The translations under genes and the position numbers were made by a program. Positions 10,958 to 34,511 of a DNA stretch of 37,390 nucleotides are shown piece after piece. The notes under the pieces are model-generated. The model saw nothing but the letters and a program-made list of their open reading frames with translations, did not search any database and was not told the origin of the DNA. Within the stretch, counting starts at the first letter, position 1; every line of letters starts with the position of its first letter. The stretch is from Nitrospiraceae bacterium (GTDB lineage Bacteria > Nitrospirota > Nitrospiria > Nitrospirales > Nitrospiraceae), in contig SYGV01000086.1 of assembly GCA_005799365.1 (NCBI GenBank), forward strand, positions 1 to 37,390. The letters are read 5' to 3'.

Positions 10958-11898
<941 letters not shown>

Positions 11899-14671: not shown

Positions 14672-16615
14672 TCAGGAAAACAAACCATGACTCAGCCGGA
14701 TGCCGAAATAGATCGAACGGACCGGCGTGCCCGCGTTGAGAATTTCCTGGTACCGCTGGTTGAACAGATTATCCGCACGGATATAGGCTTCCATGTGCTT
14801 GGTGACTGTATAGTTGGTGGTCAGGTTCCACACGTCGAAGGCCTGCATCCCCTGACGGTCGGCGGTCGTATTGAACCGCGAACCCACAAAGCGGCCAGCC
14901 AGAATGATGCGCAAGGGATCGATGGGCTGGTACCCGGCCTGGAGGCTCCACTGGTCCACCGGCTGACGCGGCAACCGGCTCCCGTTGCTCATATCTCTCG
15001 TCATCGTGTTAGTGTACTGGCCTTGTACGTCGAAAGCCTTGAGGAGGGGCAGGTCCAGGGTCTGCTTATAGGCGAAGCTGGCCTCAAAACCTTTTGTCGA
15101 GGAATTGCCGACGTTGAGTGGACAATAACCGCTGGTACTGAAGGGCGTACAGACCACGGGATCGTACGTCGTCACAATTTGATTACTATACCGGTTCCAG
15201 AAATAGCCACCGCTGAGTTTCAACCGCTTGCCGAACAGTTCCTGGTCCACCCCCGCGTCGAAACTCTGACTCTTTTCCGGCTTGAGGTTGGGATTGCCGA
15301 AGTCGACAAAATACAGTTCATTGATCGACGGAGCCCGGAACCCTGTCCCATAGCTGGTCCGGAGCTTCGTGTCCGTTTCCTTATGGAGATACCCGCCACT
15401 CAACCGGTAGGTCGTGGCATTTCCGAACACGTTATAGTTGTCCTGGCGGATGCCGGCCGTGCCGAAGACCCGATCCCACAGATTCAACTGGGCCTGGGCA
15501 AACCCCGCGTTCGACGAGACGATTCGCTGCGCAAGCGTATCATTTTTCCCCTGTTGTTCGCGGAATTGGTAGCCGAAGGTGAGTAACAGGGGGTCGGCGA
15601 CTTGCATATTGTGCTGCCACTCAAGACGGTTGCTGAGCGTCTGCGTGGTGTTCGGCGATCCGAATGGGACACTCGTCGCACCGGTGCGCAGATTGCGTTG
15701 GAGATTGCCCGGCCAATAGGGAGCATCTTCTTCGCCACGCGCCAACGTCACTTTCTGATTCCACCAATGGGTAATGGCTTGGTCGTAGCTGCCGCTAAAG
15801 ACAAACTGCTGGCTCTTGTTCTTGGCATTAAACACATCGGCTGGCGTCCCGATGTTGTCGATATTGGTCGAGCCGTTCATCCAACGAAAATTGAACTCGA
15901 GCCGGCCGTCCTTAGGCAGATCCACGCCCAACCGCGAGGAGGCGGTCCAGTTCCTGAAGGAATCCCGCTCCGTCGCGCCGAGCCGGGAATCCGCCGTGGA
16001 AAATCCGGCAAAATCCCACCGCGACAGATCCACGGAAAAGTCCACGGGACCTTTCTTGCCGCTGATCTGGCCCCCTTCTCGAATGGAATTGAAGGAGCCG
16101 TATTCGAAGAACGAACTGGCGGTCGTGCCCCCCGCGCCTTTCTTGGTGACGATATTGATGACCCCGCCCATGGCGTCCGACCCCCACAACATGCTTTGGG
16201 CGCCGCGCAGGATTTCCACCCGCTCGATATTGTCGGTCGTCAAATTGGCAAAATTGTAGGCGCCGGTCGTGGCGCTGTTGACGATGGCCCCGTCGATGAG
16301 CACCAGGGTCTGCGTCACACCGCCCCCACGAATCCGAACGTTCGTATCGGCTCCAGGCCCGCCGCTGGAAAAGACCGCGATGCCTTGCGCCAGCCGCAAG
16401 GCATCGGCCACGGTCTTGAATTTTTGCCGCTGCATCTCCTCGCCAGTGATAACCTCCACCGCGCTGGTGAGGTGACTCACCGGCATAGGCGTCTTGGTGG
16501 CCGAGGTCACCACTTCCTCGGTTTGCACAACCGGCTGCGCATCTTCCGCATGGCCGACTCCGAATCCCCACAACAACACAAACGACAGACCAAGCCCAAT
16601 GACAAACTTCCGCAC
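14672..16615 (-). CDS. btuB: TonB-dependent outer membrane receptor, BtuB-like vitamin B12 receptor
   Basis: VVTSATKTPMPVSHLTSAVEVITGEEMQRQ plug domain, RGGGVTQTLVLIDGA, GAQSMLWGSDAMGGVINIVTKKG, C-terminal beta-barrel; directly downstream of a cobalamin riboswitch; GTG start. Confidence 0.93.
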   Translation of the reverse strand: MRKFVIGLGLSFVLLWGFGVGHAEDAQPVVQTEEVVTSATKTPMPVSHLTSAVEVITGEEMQRQKFKTVADALRLAQGIAVFSSGGPGADTNVRIRGGGVTQTLVLIDGAIVNSATTGAYNFANLTTDNIERVEILRGAQSMLWGSDAMGGVINIVTKKGAGGTTASSFFEYGSFNSIREGGQISGKKGPVDFSVDLSRWDFAGFSTADSRLGATERDSFRNWTASSRLGVDLPKDGRLEFNFRWMNGSTNIDNIGTPADVFNAKNKSQQFVFSGSYDQAITHWWNQKVTLARGEEDAPYWPGNLQRNLRTGATSVPFGSPNTTQTLSNRLEWQHNMQVADPLLLTFGYQFREQQGKNDTLAQRIVSSNAGFAQAQLNLWDRVFGTAGIRQDNYNVFGNATTYRLSGGYLHKETDTKLRTSYGTGFRAPSINELYFVDFGNPNLKPEKSQSFDAGVDQELFGKRLKLSGGYFWNRYSNQIVTTYDPVVCTPFSTSGYCPLNVGNSSTKGFEASFAYKQTLDLPLLKAFDVQGQYTNTMTRDMSNGSRLPRQPVDQWSLQAGYQPIDPLRIILAGRFVGSRFNTTADRQGMQAFDVWNLTTNYTVTKHMEAYIRADNLFNQRYQEILNAGTPVRSIYFGIRLSHGLFS

Positions 16616-16649
16616 AACCCACCTCCCCTTTGACTCGAAGGGCAGAGTG

Positions 16650-16895
16650 AACTGGCTCGACAGCCGGGTGTCCTGACTCGCGGATCGTCGCTCTCCCGCG
16701 CCTTCCCATCTTCAGAAGTTGACAGTCTTGAGTTCTCAGTGTTCAGTTTTCGACTGACAACTGATAACTGTCAACGTCTTCGCGACAGTGGCATTCGTGC
16801 GGGATCACTCCTCGTTTACAGTGGCGGTACCGTGATGGCCTTGCACCATCTTCCCCGTTCTGTCTGCCTCTTCTCTCGACCTATCCTCCCTGTTG
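16650..16895 (-). ncRNA. Cobalamin riboswitch 1 (upstream of btuB operon)
   Basis: Minus strand reads GGGGAAGATGGTGCAAGGCCATCACGGTACCGCCACTGTAAAC...GCCACTGTCGCG...GATGGGAAGGCGCGGG...GAGTCAGGACACCCGGCT (B12 box). Outer boundaries approximate. Confidence 0.93.
16718..16775. repeat. Heptad inverted repeat within cobalamin riboswitch 1
   Basis: GTTGACA GTCTTGA GTTCTCA GTGTTCA GTTTTC / GACTGAC AACTGAT AACTGTC AAC; outer arms GTTGACAG/CTGTCAAC perfect. Confidence 0.88.
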
Positions 16896-16955
16896 CGTGC
16901 CCCCATCCGCCTCAACGAGGAATGGGCACATCTTCCTCGTCGCCATCCAGACGCG

Positions 16956-17016
16956 ATCAGCTTTCAGCCTTCAGCTCTCAGCCTTGATCTCCGAGCTGAC
17001 TACTGACTGCCAGCTT
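16956..17016. repeat. Heptad repeat overlapping btuD 3' end
   Basis: ATCAGCT TTCAGCC TTCAGCT CTCAGCC TTGATCT ... GAGCTGACTACTGACTGCCAGC. Confidence 0.75.
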
Positions 17017-17859
17017 CCGGCCCGGCAGCGTCACCCGCGGCAAGCCGGACTGGGGGTGCCGGTCTACCAGGACTCGGCAGCGATAGACCTCCTCCAGCAC
17101 CTCCGGCGTCATCACCTCCTCCGGCGACCCCAGGCGCACGGTTCGCCCCCTGTCCAACAGCAGCAAGCGATCGCAGTGTTGGCCAGCCAGATTCAGATCA
17201 TGAGACACCAGGACCACGGTCAATCCCCGTTCTTCGTTGAGCCGGCTCAGGATCGAGCAGATATCCAATTGGTGATGGAGGTCCAGAAAGGCGGTCGGCT
17301 CGTCCAAGAGCAGCACCTTCGGTTCCTGGGTCAGCGCGCGGGCGATCACGGCCCGCTGGCGCTCCCCGCCCGATACATCGGTGATGGAACGGTGGGCCAG
17401 GTGCAGCACGTCGGTCTCCCGCATCGCCGCCTCCGCCGTACGGATATCCTCCGGCCCTTCCCAACCAAGACCGCTCAGTCCGATGTTCCGCCGATGGTGG
17501 GGAAACCGCCCCATCAGCACCATTTCGGTGATCGAAAATGGAAAGGCGATGGGGCTCTCCTGCGGAACCAGGGCCACCGATCTGGCCACCTCATGCTGCG
17601 GCATGCCGATGAGCTCGCAGCCAAACAACTTCACCGAACCTTCCTGCTGACGCAGCACCTTTGCCAGGATTTTCAGCAGCGAGCTCTTCCCCGACCCGTT
17701 CGGACCCAACACCCCCAGGATCTCGCCCGGACGCACCTCGAAGGTCAGGCCATCAAGGACCCAGCCGTTGCCCGACCGGCTCCCCGCTGGATGGCCGTAG
17801 GAGAACCGGAGCCCGTCCACCGAGTAGGCGGCTCCTCCTGTCAGCTCCTTGATGCTCAT
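16978..17859 (-). CDS. btuD: B12/cobalt-chelate ABC transporter ATP-binding protein
   Basis: LGPNGSGKSSLLKILAKVL Walker A, VSGGERQRAVIARALTQEPKVLLLDEPTAFLD signature/Walker B. Confidence 0.92.
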   Translation of the reverse strand: MSIKELTGGAAYSVDGLRFSYGHPAGSRSGNGWVLDGLTFEVRPGEILGVLGPNGSGKSSLLKILAKVLRQQEGSVKLFGCELIGMPQHEVARSVALVPQESPIAFPFSITEMVLMGRFPHHRRNIGLSGLGWEGPEDIRTAEAAMRETDVLHLAHRSITDVSGGERQRAVIARALTQEPKVLLLDEPTAFLDLHHQLDICSILSRLNEERGLTVVLVSHDLNLAGQHCDRLLLLDRGRTVRLGSPEEVMTPEVLEEVYRCRVLVDRHPQSGLPRVTLPGRKLAVSSQLGDQG

Positions 17860-19010
17860 GCCAGCCGGCCCTTCCGCAAAGTCAGGAGATAGATGAAGAA
17901 CGGCCCTCCGGCCAGGGCGGTCACCACGCCCACCGGAATCTCCGTCGGGGCCAGCAACGTCCGCGCGATCGTATCCGCCGCCATCAGATACATGCCCCCC
18001 ACTAGGGCGGAGGCAGGCAAGAGCAGCCGGTGGTCCGCGCCGGCGAGCAGGCGCAGGGCATGCGGAATGACCATGCCGACGAACCCGATCATTCCGCTGA
18101 CCGACACGACTGCGCCCGTCAGCAGCGCCGACGTAAAAAAGACGGTCTGTTTGACTGCCTCGACCTCGACTCCGAGCGCGCGGGCCGACTCTTCCCCGAG
18201 CGTGAGCAGGTTGAGCGAGGCCGCCTGACGGAACAAGACGAGCAGGCCGGTCAGGAGATAGGCGGCCAGCACCAGCATGGCCGGGTAGTCCGGCGCGGTC
18301 AGCGTCCCCATCAGCCAGGACATCATGCCGAACGAGCGATTCGGCTCCATGATCGACGTCACGAACATGACCAGCGCGGAGAAGACGGCGTTGAGAATCA
18401 CCCCGGCCAGCAACAGGGTATGGATGGGCAGATATCCGTACGCGGTCGCAATACGGTAAACCACGAGCACGGAGAGCAACCCTCCGGCCATGGCGCAGAG
18501 AGAGAGCGCCGAAAAGGCCAGGGCCGTGCCCGTCAACCCGAACAGGATCGCCAGCCCGGCGCCCAGCGCCGCCCCGCTGGAAATACCGAGCACATAGGGA
18601 TCGGCCAGCGGATTCCGAAACAGGGCTTGAAGCCCCACGCCGACGGCTGCCAGACAGCCTCCGACCATGAAGGCTAGCAGCACCCGCGGCAATCGCACTT
18701 GCAATAAAATGACGCCGCTTGCGCCGGCCGATTCAAGACCTGCCGGGCCCGCGCCGATGGCCAGACTTACGATGCGAATCTCTTCGGCAAGCCCGATGCG
18801 CTCCGCGCCGAACTGCAGGCAGATTAGCAGCACGAGGACGGCGGCCGCAGCCAAGGCCGATAGGGTGAGCAGCCACCGCAAGGGCGACAGCCTGGATGAC
18901 CCGACCGGCGCGACACATGACGGCCTTGCGGCTTCTCCTGCCGGCGCCACAAACGCAGTCGCGACGGCCTTTCGTTCTTCCGATCGGGTCTGTCCGGCCA
19001 TGAGTCCCAT
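17856..19010 (-). CDS. btuC: B12 ABC transporter permease (FecCD family)
   Basis: RLPRVLLAFMVGGCLAAVGVGLQALFRNPLADPYVLGISSGAALGAGLAI; SGMIGFVGMVIPHALRLLAGADHR. Confidence 0.93.
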   Translation of the reverse strand: MGLMAGQTRSEERKAVATAFVAPAGEAARPSCVAPVGSSRLSPLRWLLTLSALAAAAVLVLLICLQFGAERIGLAEEIRIVSLAIGAGPAGLESAGASGVILLQVRLPRVLLAFMVGGCLAAVGVGLQALFRNPLADPYVLGISSGAALGAGLAILFGLTGTALAFSALSLCAMAGGLLSVLVVYRIATAYGYLPIHTLLLAGVILNAVFSALVMFVTSIMEPNRSFGMMSWLMGTLTAPDYPAMLVLAAYLLTGLLVLFRQAASLNLLTLGEESARALGVEVEAVKQTVFFTSALLTGAVVSVSGMIGFVGMVIPHALRLLAGADHRLLLPASALVGGMYLMAADTIARTLLAPTEIPVGVVTALAGGPFFIYLLTLRKGRLA

Positions 19011-20011
19011 TACGGCCCTGGCCCCTGTTCAAACGCCTCCGGGTGGATGATCCGGGCCAACGCCTCCAGCCCCTGGGCAATCCTGGGACCGGGCCGGTTC
19101 AGCAGATCGGCGGCAATCTGATGGAACCGCTGATGCTTGACGGCCGAGAGCGTGGTCCATCGCCGCCACTGTTGCTGCTCGCCCTCGGAAACGCTCTCGG
19201 CGCCGCCGACGGGAAAGATCAGGACCTCCGGGTCCTCCTTCAGCACCTCTTCCAGGCTCAGTCGGGGGTACGGAGCCTGCGCACGGCCGGCGACATTGAC
19301 GCCGCCGGCCAGCTCGATCATCTGATGGATAAAACTCCCGGGCCCGACCGTGATGAGCGGCTGGCTGTTCAGGACGTACAGCACGCGCAAACGCGGACGT
19401 TCCTGCACCCTGGCCCTGATCGCCGCAATCTGCCGCCGCATCTCGGTGGCCACCCGATCGCCAGCCTGGGAACGGTCCATCATCCGTCCGATGATCTGGA
19501 CGTGGGAGGGAATCTCCTCCATGGCCTTGGCCTCCAGAATGAAGGTGGGAATTTTAAGCTGTTCGAGCTTGGCCAGGGTATCCGCCCGAAGGAACGTACT
19601 GGGGGCCAGGACCAGGTCCGGCCTCAACGCGACGATGGACTCCAGATTCGGATTCGAATATCCGACTTTCGGTTTGGCGCGGGCCTGCGGCGGATAGTCG
19701 CAATAATCGGTCACCCCGACGATTTCCTCGTCGAGCCCGAGGCTGTAGAGGATTTCCGTCATGCTGGGCGCCAGCGACACTACCCGGGCCGGTCGTTTGG
19801 CCAGGTAGAGCTTGCGGCCCAAGTCGTCCAGAAAGGTCCGCTCAGCCAGATTGGCCATGAACGGCATGCCCGTGAGGATGCCTTGCTGCCGCCGATTCAG
19901 AGCCATATCATCACTCTCACCGGCCTGCGCAACGCCGGTGGTCCATAGCAACGCCAGGCAGAAGCACCAGGCTCCAACCAGGGCGCAACCCTGCGGTCGA
20001 CGGTTCCGCAA
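19010..20011 (-). CDS. btuF: B12 ABC transporter substrate-binding protein (proposed TTG start)
   Basis: PARVVSLAPSMTEILYSLGLDEEIVGVTDYCDYPPQAR...; signal peptide MRNRRPQGCALVGAWCFCLALLWTTGVAQA if TTG at 20011 is the start; the ORF-track start 20035 lies inside a terminator-like hairpin. Confidence 0.9.
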   Translation of the reverse strand: MRNRRPQGCALVGAWCFCLALLWTTGVAQAGESDDMALNRRQQGILTGMPFMANLAERTFLDDLGRKLYLAKRPARVVSLAPSMTEILYSLGLDEEIVGVTDYCDYPPQARAKPKVGYSNPNLESIVALRPDLVLAPSTFLRADTLAKLEQLKIPTFILEAKAMEEIPSHVQIIGRMMDRSQAGDRVATEMRRQIAAIRARVQERPRLRVLYVLNSQPLITVGPGSFIHQMIELAGGVNVAGRAQAPYPRLSLEEVLKEDPEVLIFPVGGAESVSEGEQQQWRRWTTLSAVKHQRFHQIAADLLNRPGPRIAQGLEALARIIHPEAFEQGPGP

Positions 20012-20013
20012 AT

Positions 20014-20050
20014 AAAAAATCCCCAAGGCCTGCAAAAGACCCTGAGGATT
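20014..20050 (-). terminator. Rho-independent terminator-like hairpin between riboswitch 2 and btuF
   Basis: Minus strand AATCCTCAGGG-tcttttgcagg-CCTTGGGGATT followed by TTTT; 11-bp stem with two G-U pairs. Confidence 0.72.
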
Positions 20051-20104
20051 GCACCCGCTTCTTCACCCTCACTCTTTCCCCAGCCCACGAGGGAAAGACG
20101 GCCA

Positions 20105-20360
20105 TGCTCCGGGGAGGTCTTCTGGCTTAGGGTTCGACTCTACTCCCCGCGCCTTCCCATCTCTTTAAACCGTGATCTGTGATGTGTGATACGTGATGCG
20201 TCAGAGGAGTTTCTGGTTCACCTCTGAACCCATTACTGATCACTCGTCACTTGTCACCGTCGCCAAGACAGTGGCTTCCGCGGGTTTCGTCCCCATTACA
20301 GCGGCGGGACCGCGAGGGAGTTGCACCCTCTTCCCTTGACCCGGAGGTATGATTTGTAGA
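20105..20360 (-). ncRNA. Cobalamin riboswitch 2 (upstream of btuFCD)
   Basis: Minus strand GGGAAGAGGGTGCAACTCCCTCGCGGTCCCGCCGCTGTAATGGGG...GAAGCCACTGTC...GATGGGAAGGCGCGGGG...TAAGCCAGAAGACCTCCCC (B12 box). Confidence 0.93.
20172..20258. repeat. Heptad inverted repeat within cobalamin riboswitch 2
   Basis: GTGATCT GTGATGT GTGATAC GTGATGC GTCAGAG ... CTCTGA ... ACTGATC ACTCGTC ACTTGTC AC. Confidence 0.88.
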
Positions 20361-33989: not shown

Positions 33990-34083
33990 ATTCGGTTATC
34001 AGTTTTCAGTTTCCGGAACCGATCACTGAGAACTGGATACCGACAACCCCGTTCCCACGCGTCACGCATCACGCTTCACGCCA
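33990..34083. repeat. Two heptad blocks between nusB and purB
   Basis: GGTTATCA GTTTTCA GTTTCCG GAACCGATCACTGAGAACTG; CGCGTCA CGCATCA CGCTTCA CGCCAAC. Confidence 0.82.
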
Positions 34084-34511
34084 ACCAGTTCGGCCCGCTT
34101 GACCTCCAGTCGCGGGTCTGACTTGAGCACCTGGTCCAGAATCCCGTTGACAAACTTTTTCGTCTCCTCATCCGCAAATCGTTTGGCCAGCTCGAGCGCT
34201 TCATTGACCGTGACCTTGGCCGGCACGTCGGGCATATAACAGAGCTCATAAAGAGCCGCCCGCAGAATGTTGCGGTCCACGATCGGCATGCGGCTCACTT
34301 TCCAATTCGCCGCATGGGCACCGAGCAGCTTGTCTAGTTCCGGTCGGTTCGTCAGGACCCCCTCGACGAGTTGCTCGGCAAACCGCTTCACCTCCGGCTC
34401 GACCTGGTGCTGGGCCTCGAAATCGGCGAGCCAATGTCCGCCCTTTCCATGGACGTCCCATTGGAAAAGGATTTGCAACGCACGTTCGCGGGACTGTCGG
34501 CGAATGCCCAT
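34062..34511 (-). CDS. nusB: Transcription antitermination factor NusB
   Basis: RRQSRERALQILFQWDVHG; ILRAALYELCYMPDVPAKVTVNEALELAKRFADEETKKFVNGILD. Confidence 0.96.
   Translation of the reverse strand: MGIRRQSRERALQILFQWDVHGKGGHWLADFEAQHQVEPEVKRFAEQLVEGVLTNRPELDKLLGAHAANWKVSRMPIVDRNILRAALYELCYMPDVPAKVTVNEALELAKRFADEETKKFVNGILDQVLKSDPRLEVKRAELVGVKRDA

Follow-up and report, generated by a model that had tools for sequence, protein, structure and literature searches.

Long heptad hairpins in cobalamin riboswitches of Nitrospirota, probably replaceable arms from a dispersed repeat class

Two cobalamin riboswitches of one B12 uptake locus, found in a 37,390-nt stretch of a Nitrospiraceae genome (here referred to as the window), carry at the same site long hairpin arms with a period of 7 nt. 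The best overall explanation, which we regard as probable, is that such an arm is a replaceable, self-folding hairpin that comes from a dispersed class of heptad hairpins and is tolerated in an otherwise ordinary cobalamin riboswitch. Judged from sequence, the heptads follow a 5+2 design (a 5-nt core and a 2-nt spacer), the hairpins are dispersed, are replaced between intact flanks and are shared by paralogous riboswitches, and the cores rather than the spacers are paired. We infer that the arms originated by insertion.

RESULTS

Two ordinary cobalamin riboswitches with unusual arms. The window is part of a 1.63-Mb draft genome (77% complete, 145 contigs), and its minus strand encodes a B12 uptake locus in the order riboswitch, btuF-like, btuC-like and btuD-like genes, another riboswitch, and a btuB-like gene (Table 1). 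Both riboswitches match the Rfam covariance model RF00174 over its full length (model positions 1 to 189) and above its gathering score of 31.5, the B12 box is present, and genes for BtuF/C/D-like and BtuB-like proteins lie downstream. By these features, they appear to be ordinary cobalamin riboswitches with an extraordinary peripheral arm. In the RF00174 alignment, a large insert separates GCCACTG from GGGAAGG in both of them, at the place where an earlier note on this DNA had located the arm. The words listed in that note for the btuF riboswitch were also placed correctly, with GTGATCT GTGATGT GTGATAC GTGATGC at positions 20172 to 20199 and ACTGATC ACTCGTC ACTTGTC AC at positions 20235 to 20257 of the plus strand; the two sets are opposite strands of one hairpin, and the RNA corresponds to the minus strand. 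The arms of the two riboswitches indeed differ in their words at the equivalent site, with GTGAY cores in the btuF arm and TCAGT cores in the btuB arm. The notion of a "heptad word" held up in part: the period of 7 is real, but the unit is a 5-nt core with a free 2-nt spacer, and there is no fixed 7-mer. Lag-7 identity is 0.485 for the btuF arm, a value that 0 of 5,000 dinucleotide shuffles reach at any of the lags 3 to 20, and 0.479 for the btuB arm, which 0.4% of dinucleotide shuffles reach over this range of lags (P = 0.004).

Table 1. Positions of the riboswitches, arms and genes of the window, with the TPP riboswitches that carry comparable arms
Feature	Position	Strand	Basis
Cobalamin riboswitch aptamer, btuF-like gene downstream ("second riboswitch" of the earlier note)	20095..20360	-	RF00174, 86.0 bits, E 4.8e-20
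Invariant box GCCACTG, 5' border of btuF-riboswitch arm	20269..20275	-	Sequence
110-nt heptad hairpin arm, GTGAY-NN words	20159..20268	-	Lag-7 identity, fold, pair counts
5' heptads of btuF arm, GTGACAA GTGACGA GTGATCA GTAATGG (RNA sense)	20230..20257	-	Sequence, alignment A2
Apical non-heptad hairpin of btuF arm (GTTCAGAGG...CCTCTGAC)	20200..20229	-	Alignments A1, A2
3' heptads of btuF arm, GCATCAC GTATCAC ACATCAC AGATCAC (RNA sense)	20172..20199	-	Sequence, pair counts
Invariant box GGGAAGG, 3' border of btuF-riboswitch arm	20152..20158	-	Sequence
B12 box (AGCCAGAAGACC), btuF riboswitch	20116..20127	-	Rfam alignment
btuF-like periplasmic binding protein, downstream of btuF riboswitch	19010..20035	-	PF01497, E 3e-32
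btuC-like permease	17856..19010	-	PF01032, E 1e-82
btuD-like ATPase	16978..17859	-	PF00005, E 1.9e-30
Cobalamin riboswitch aptamer, btuB-like gene downstream ("first riboswitch" of the earlier note)	16645..16900	-	RF00174, 81.9 bits
78-nt heptad hairpin arm, TCAGT-NN words, member of dispersed hairpin family	16708..16785	-	Lag-7 identity 0.479, dispersed relatives
btuB-like TonB-dependent receptor, downstream of btuB riboswitch	14672..16615	-	PF00593 and PF07715
Non-riboswitch relative of btuB arm, TCAGTNN hairpin between two genes	33995..34047	+	75% identity over 53 nt, E 0.0024 (weaker than the relatives at E < 1e-3)
TPP riboswitches with 91- to 99-nt hairpin arms	L411 and L412 (G020), L413 (G033), L414 (G006)		G006 weak by lag test

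A common 5+2 design across the family. Cobalamin riboswitches are present in 98 of 101 relatives; 100 candidate arms were excised and sorted by downstream gene, and the final count was 54 short (≤30 nt) and 45 long arms. Arm length ranges from 9 to 110 nt at one fixed site among relatives, so that the insert is nonconserved and its site fixed and permissive, as in a riboswitch variable insertion. The earlier note had proposed a survey of the clade for a lag-7 signal in this arm, and held that an absence of such arms from other riboswitches of the clade would speak against its reading. About half of the btuF and btuB riboswitches of the family have long heptad arms, with 9- to 29-nt hairpins in the others, and the pooled identity of 41 long arms is 0.467, 0.435, and 0.384 at lags 7, 14, and 21, compared with 0.21 to 0.24 at the other lags from 3 to 20. 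In 34 arms that were phased by the direct repeat alone, conservation is 0.80, 0.91, 0.88, 0.83, and 0.79 along the core and 0.33 and 0.28 in the spacer, the latter being close to chance. In the same 34 arms, Watson-Crick pairing with the opposite strand is 0.71 to 0.91 for cores and 0.43 to 0.47 for spacers. A selection of spacers to mispair, as a way of avoiding RNase III or SbcCD, was considered and rejected, since this spacer pairing is above chance and hence is not avoided. In many predicted folds, 2-by-2 loops alternate with short stems (about 5 bp), the apical hairpin often is a plain stem, and the core word varies by locus (GTGAY, CGTGA, CGTTA, CGTCA, or TCAGY). Nitrospira moscoviensis, whose genome is complete (CP011801.1), has heptad arms in both riboswitches, and such arms are also found in other single-contig genomes. 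When a collection of 85,462 species was scanned, no GTGA-heptad cobalamin riboswitch outside Nitrospirota was confirmed among the matches listed; the riboswitches confirmed among them are all titled Nitrospira, Nitrospirae, or Nitrospirota, and the remaining matches are unconfirmed.

The lineage of the btuF arm comprises the arms of the window, G001 (twice), G010, L211, and G014. Core pairing in this lineage amounts to 92.5%, and in four pairs both partners have changed; nine core cells covary, a number reached by 0 of 500 shuffles, with 0 cells in the spacers. As the sequences are few and related, the counts are to be read as a sign that pairing is maintained and not as a measure of it. The apical hairpin is kept in orthologous arms from other genera, and the GTGAY arm together with this hairpin persists, its cores invariant, in three or more genera (alignments A1 and A2), which could reflect more than neutrality. 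Within the genus, no full-length relative of the btuF arm was found outside cobalamin riboswitches, the only matches being heptad matches of 14 to 32 nt. Growth in place is therefore as possible as insertion for this particular arm.

Arms turn over and are shared between riboswitches. Replacement is illustrated by the btuB riboswitches of the sister species G030 and G046, in which both flanks are 99% identical and the arm is a 101-nt heptad hairpin in one and a 14-nt hairpin in the other. A similar difference between a long and a short arm separates G026 from G035, with flanks 87 and 97% identical, and the btuF riboswitches of the near relatives G036 and G049 have different heptad words. A BtuCD tree, quickly built and with some long branches, requires no fewer than 9 (btuF) and 11 (btuB) changes between long and short arms within the family. 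Changes of word class number 15 and 18 on the same tree; these are soft counts, because some GTGA arms (e.g., that of the G001 btuF riboswitch) were scored as "other," and they were set aside in favor of the long/short counts. Related arms also differ by whole heptads on one strand only (+14 nt in the G003 btuB arm and +7 nt in the G002 btuF arm; alignment A3), and the 25-nt arm of the G045 btuF riboswitch looks like a remnant.

In the genus of the window, the 5' and 3' flanks group strictly by gene, with identities of 0.86 to 1.00 within and 0.65 to 0.73 between genes, whereas the arms do not. The btuB arm of G001 shows an identity of 0.85 to the btuF arm of G000 and of 0.89 to that of G001 itself, so that both riboswitches of G001 carry the same arm on aptamers that remain distinct. 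Likewise, the btuF arm of G002 and the btuB arm of G003 have an identity of 0.80; the btuB arm of G002 measures 9 nt. Together, the replacement within near-identical flanks and the similarity confined to arms indicate that arms turn over, and pass from one riboswitch to the other, without the aptamer following suit. The earlier note had argued from the different words against a simple duplication of one riboswitch. This stands for the aptamers, which are not recently duplicated, but not for the arms, which can be shared (the G001 btuB arm being 85 to 89% identical to btuF arms); since the G001 riboswitches have the same arm despite distinct aptamers, the argument against duplication does not hold in full, and copying of arms between the two riboswitches has to be part of the account. 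Of the alternatives that the note offered, recurrent change at a tolerated site is supported by the 101- and 14-nt arms in 99% identical flanks, by the numbers of changes on the tree, and by relatives of the btuB arm at other loci.

A dispersed class of heptad hairpins. In 1.04 Mb of family sequence, triples of identical 5-nt cores at lag 7 formed 52 clusters outside cobalamin riboswitches and 16 in their arms, at least 2 of the 52 being G014 arms that were missed by the riboswitch mask. The control lags 5, 6, 8, 10, 11, and 13 gave 1 to 5 clusters, and the codon lags 9 and 12 gave 10 and 15, respectively. Although open reading frames (ORFs), from a greedy set that over-calls, cover 89% of the sequence, 24 of the 52 clusters lie outside them; an exact inverted partner was present for 15 of 51 clusters. 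Of 296 genomes of the phylum, 138 have GCTGANN triples, as counted from sampled stretches and pattern searches, with the highest numbers in G224; the reversed-pattern control is near zero in most genomes. Cluster density is estimated at about 0.2 per kb of non-ORF sequence and about 2 to 3 per kb in arms, which exceeds what a simple tolerance of random insertion would predict and, to this extent, counts against our preferred explanation. In G224, a 6-Mb genome from another family of the phylum, GCTGANNGCTGANNGCTGA has 260 forward and 245 reverse matches (control, 0), and many other genomes of the phylum have no GCTGANNGCTGANNGCTGA matches; G000 and G003 show a smaller excess at lag 14 beside that at lag 7, as heptads would give.

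The btuB arm has relatives (E < 1e-3) at several non-riboswitch loci of the genus, most of them intergenic. Many of these share a AGTTCCGGAA-type tip, and they are about 75 to 83% alike over about 40 to 70 nt, compared with the near-identical copies expected of REP or MITE elements.

Heptads were also seen elsewhere. At window positions 33995 to 34110, the TCAGTNN hairpin is followed at the end of a gene by CACGCNN heptads (from about 34056), so that two words adjoin. Further runs lie at 10958, 13870, 16956, 24888, and 25823 (TCATT, GAACG, TCAGC, and ATGGC cores), some overlapping ORFs; the one at 16956 is at the end of the btuD-like gene, directly before the btuB riboswitch. Upstream of the btuB riboswitch of G002 there is a run of about 10 CTTCACG heptads (L063, 2394), and G001 has a run of about four heptads at a similar place (L062, 5080).

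Predicted folding. In the long-arm riboswitches, 3% of arm bases are predicted to pair with the aptamer, compared with 19% when the arm is shuffled, and the value is lower for the native arm in 44 of 45 cases. The arm alone has a mean predicted folding z-score of -4.6 (45 long arms). As far as structure prediction goes, the arm thus forms a stem-loop of its own and stays clear of the aptamer, as described for variable insertions, and it presumably is neutral or nearly neutral to B12 sensing. The functional role that the earlier note had offered as one reading of the long arm found no support beyond the maintained base pairing of the cores.

Heptad arms in TPP riboswitches. At least three TPP riboswitches of Nitrospiraceae, both copies of G020 and that of G033, contain 91- to 99-nt CGTTA/CGTGA heptad hairpins between AGCTAGGGGAGC and GGCTGAGAGTCCG, a site that by position is the P3a region. 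The pooled lag-7 identity of the TPP arms is 0.447 with G006 included, and three of the four pass individually; the G006 arm looks heptad-like but fails the any-lag test (P = 0.43) and was not accepted as a heptad hairpin. The TPP riboswitches L415 (G035) and L416 (G010) have non-heptad hairpin arms of 188 to 190 nt, and L418 (G022) has a 50-nt near-perfect hairpin at the arm site. No lag-7 core triples were found in 30 Nitrospiraceae RNase P loci. Two heptad triples were counted over the tmRNA loci, their position relative to the tmRNA itself being unassigned.

DISCUSSION

The explanation that we consider probable can be outlined as follows. The long arm would be a replaceable hairpin that folds on itself and has been inserted where a peripheral helix ends, and it would belong to a class of heptad hairpins that have about four to five units (5-nt core and 2-nt spacer) per strand, use locus-specific cores, and are dispersed in Nitrospirota. 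Such hairpins would enter riboswitches at permissive arms, might then lengthen or shorten by whole heptads, and would be retained because their pairing is internal and does not engage the aptamer. The segment between GCCACTG and GGGAAGG could further be copied into, or replaced from, other riboswitches. The simplest copying route would be a gene conversion in short tracts that span the invariant boxes, its partners being the btuF and btuB copies, which lie about 3.4 kb apart; this suggestion is based on identities from four species, and transfer from other species would look alike.

It is possible, but in our opinion unlikely, that the arms instead arise in place, a short ancestral hairpin being enlarged by tandem heptad duplication through slippage or template switching in the hairpin, with no mobile or dispersed donor. 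The whole-heptad differences on one strand of the G003 btuB and G002 btuF arms would be expected from such a process, as would the frequent plain-stem apical hairpin and the lack of a full-length dispersed copy of the btuF arm. However, growth in place does not readily account for unrelated words that swap within near-identical flanks, for the long relatives of the btuB arm at other loci, or for word classes that many genera have in common and that reappear in TPP riboswitches. A broader idea, which we put forward tentatively and hold to be rather doubtful, is that in Nitrospirota an active and hitherto undescribed process writes 5+2 heptad hairpins of varying word at hairpin tips and that permissive riboswitch arms of several classes are repeatedly colonized, homogenized, and exchanged as modules. 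If true, this would give riboswitches a fast-evolving periphery that may tune regulation.

A selected function of the long arm, be it protein binding, slowing of RNA polymerase, or stabilization of the leader, by which the B12 response would be tuned, seems improbable to us. It is true that cores remain paired despite changes on both sides, that one arm lineage persists over genera, that heptad arms reach a far higher density in riboswitches than in the rest of the non-ORF sequence, and that they occur in two riboswitch classes. However, maintained pairing is equally expected if selection is for harmless folding only, the arm is absent from the same riboswitch in close relatives with 99% identical flanks, the freely varying core words offer no common recognition sequence, and the G045 btuF arm likely is a decayed remnant. 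Duplication of one ancestral long-arm riboswitch, followed by divergence of the arms without exchange, would explain why both riboswitches belong to RF00174 and have the arm at the same site, but it is very improbable given that flanks group by gene and arms do not, that similarity between btuF and btuB riboswitches can be confined to the arm, and that many orthologues have 9- to 29-nt arms. The incomplete, fragmented draft from which the window is taken might raise the suspicion of chance or an assembly artifact; with no shuffle reaching the lag-7 identity of the btuF arm, and with arms of the same kind in independent genomes, including both riboswitches of the complete N. moscoviensis genome, this can be dismissed for practical purposes.

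Searches of open-licence papers returned no prior report on heptad arms in Nitrospira riboswitches and no description of the heptad design, the dispersed source class, replacement between intact flanks, or sharing by paralogs. Several known systems are similar in part. REP/BIME and MITE-like elements are short intergenic hairpins dispersed in genomes, and the heptad hairpins resemble them in these respects but differ in that no sequence is conserved over the class and the word varies by locus. STRR heptanucleotide repeats, which Vioque is said to have reported in 1997, reportedly occur in the RNase P RNA of heterocyst-forming cyanobacteria and presumably consist of heptads of fixed words. As in that case, short tandem heptads of a class dispersed in the genome are found within a structured RNA. 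However, the phylum and the RNA are different, the Nitrospiraceae RNase P loci are free of heptads, and the riboswitch arms have core words that differ by locus and free spacers in place of a fixed unit word.

The TAACTGA heptamers of Beggiatoaceae and cyanobacteria (MacGregor 2015, PMC4679880) are direct repeats that also have a heptad period and form short intergenic arrays. They consist of one exact word, of which single-base variants are rare as repeats, and lie mostly just upstream of start codons, whereas the riboswitch arms are inverted pairs with many words and free spacers inside riboswitches. A period of 7 has been described as favored among simple repeats in the intergenic DNA of some bacteria, with polymerase slippage proposed as the cause (Rehm 2015, PMC4692102, citing a 2007 survey); unlike the window arms, those repeats are G-rich quadruplex units with no link to riboswitches.

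The closest precedent is the variable insertions of riboswitches, among them two optional elements, the P8-P10-P11 domain of the AdoCbl aptamer and P3a of TPP riboswitches (Barrick and Breaker 2007, PMC2258182). The heptad arm is of this known kind, being a long nonconserved insert at a fixed site that forms a stable stem-loop and spares the aptamer core. It differs from the variable insertions described in that paper in having one two-strand 5+2 design, in belonging to a dispersed repeat class, and in being exchanged between paralogous riboswitches. Two questions thereby become testable, namely, by what means structured RNAs gain and accommodate large domains at their periphery and which process generates repeats that have a period of 7 but a changing word. 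N. moscoviensis offers a named species with a complete genome. Variable insertions have usually been regarded as having no features of their own; in the present case, it appears possible to trace where they come from and how they turn over, with a dispersed 5+2 repeat class that would supply the arms and with paralogous riboswitches that share arms and retain their own aptamers.
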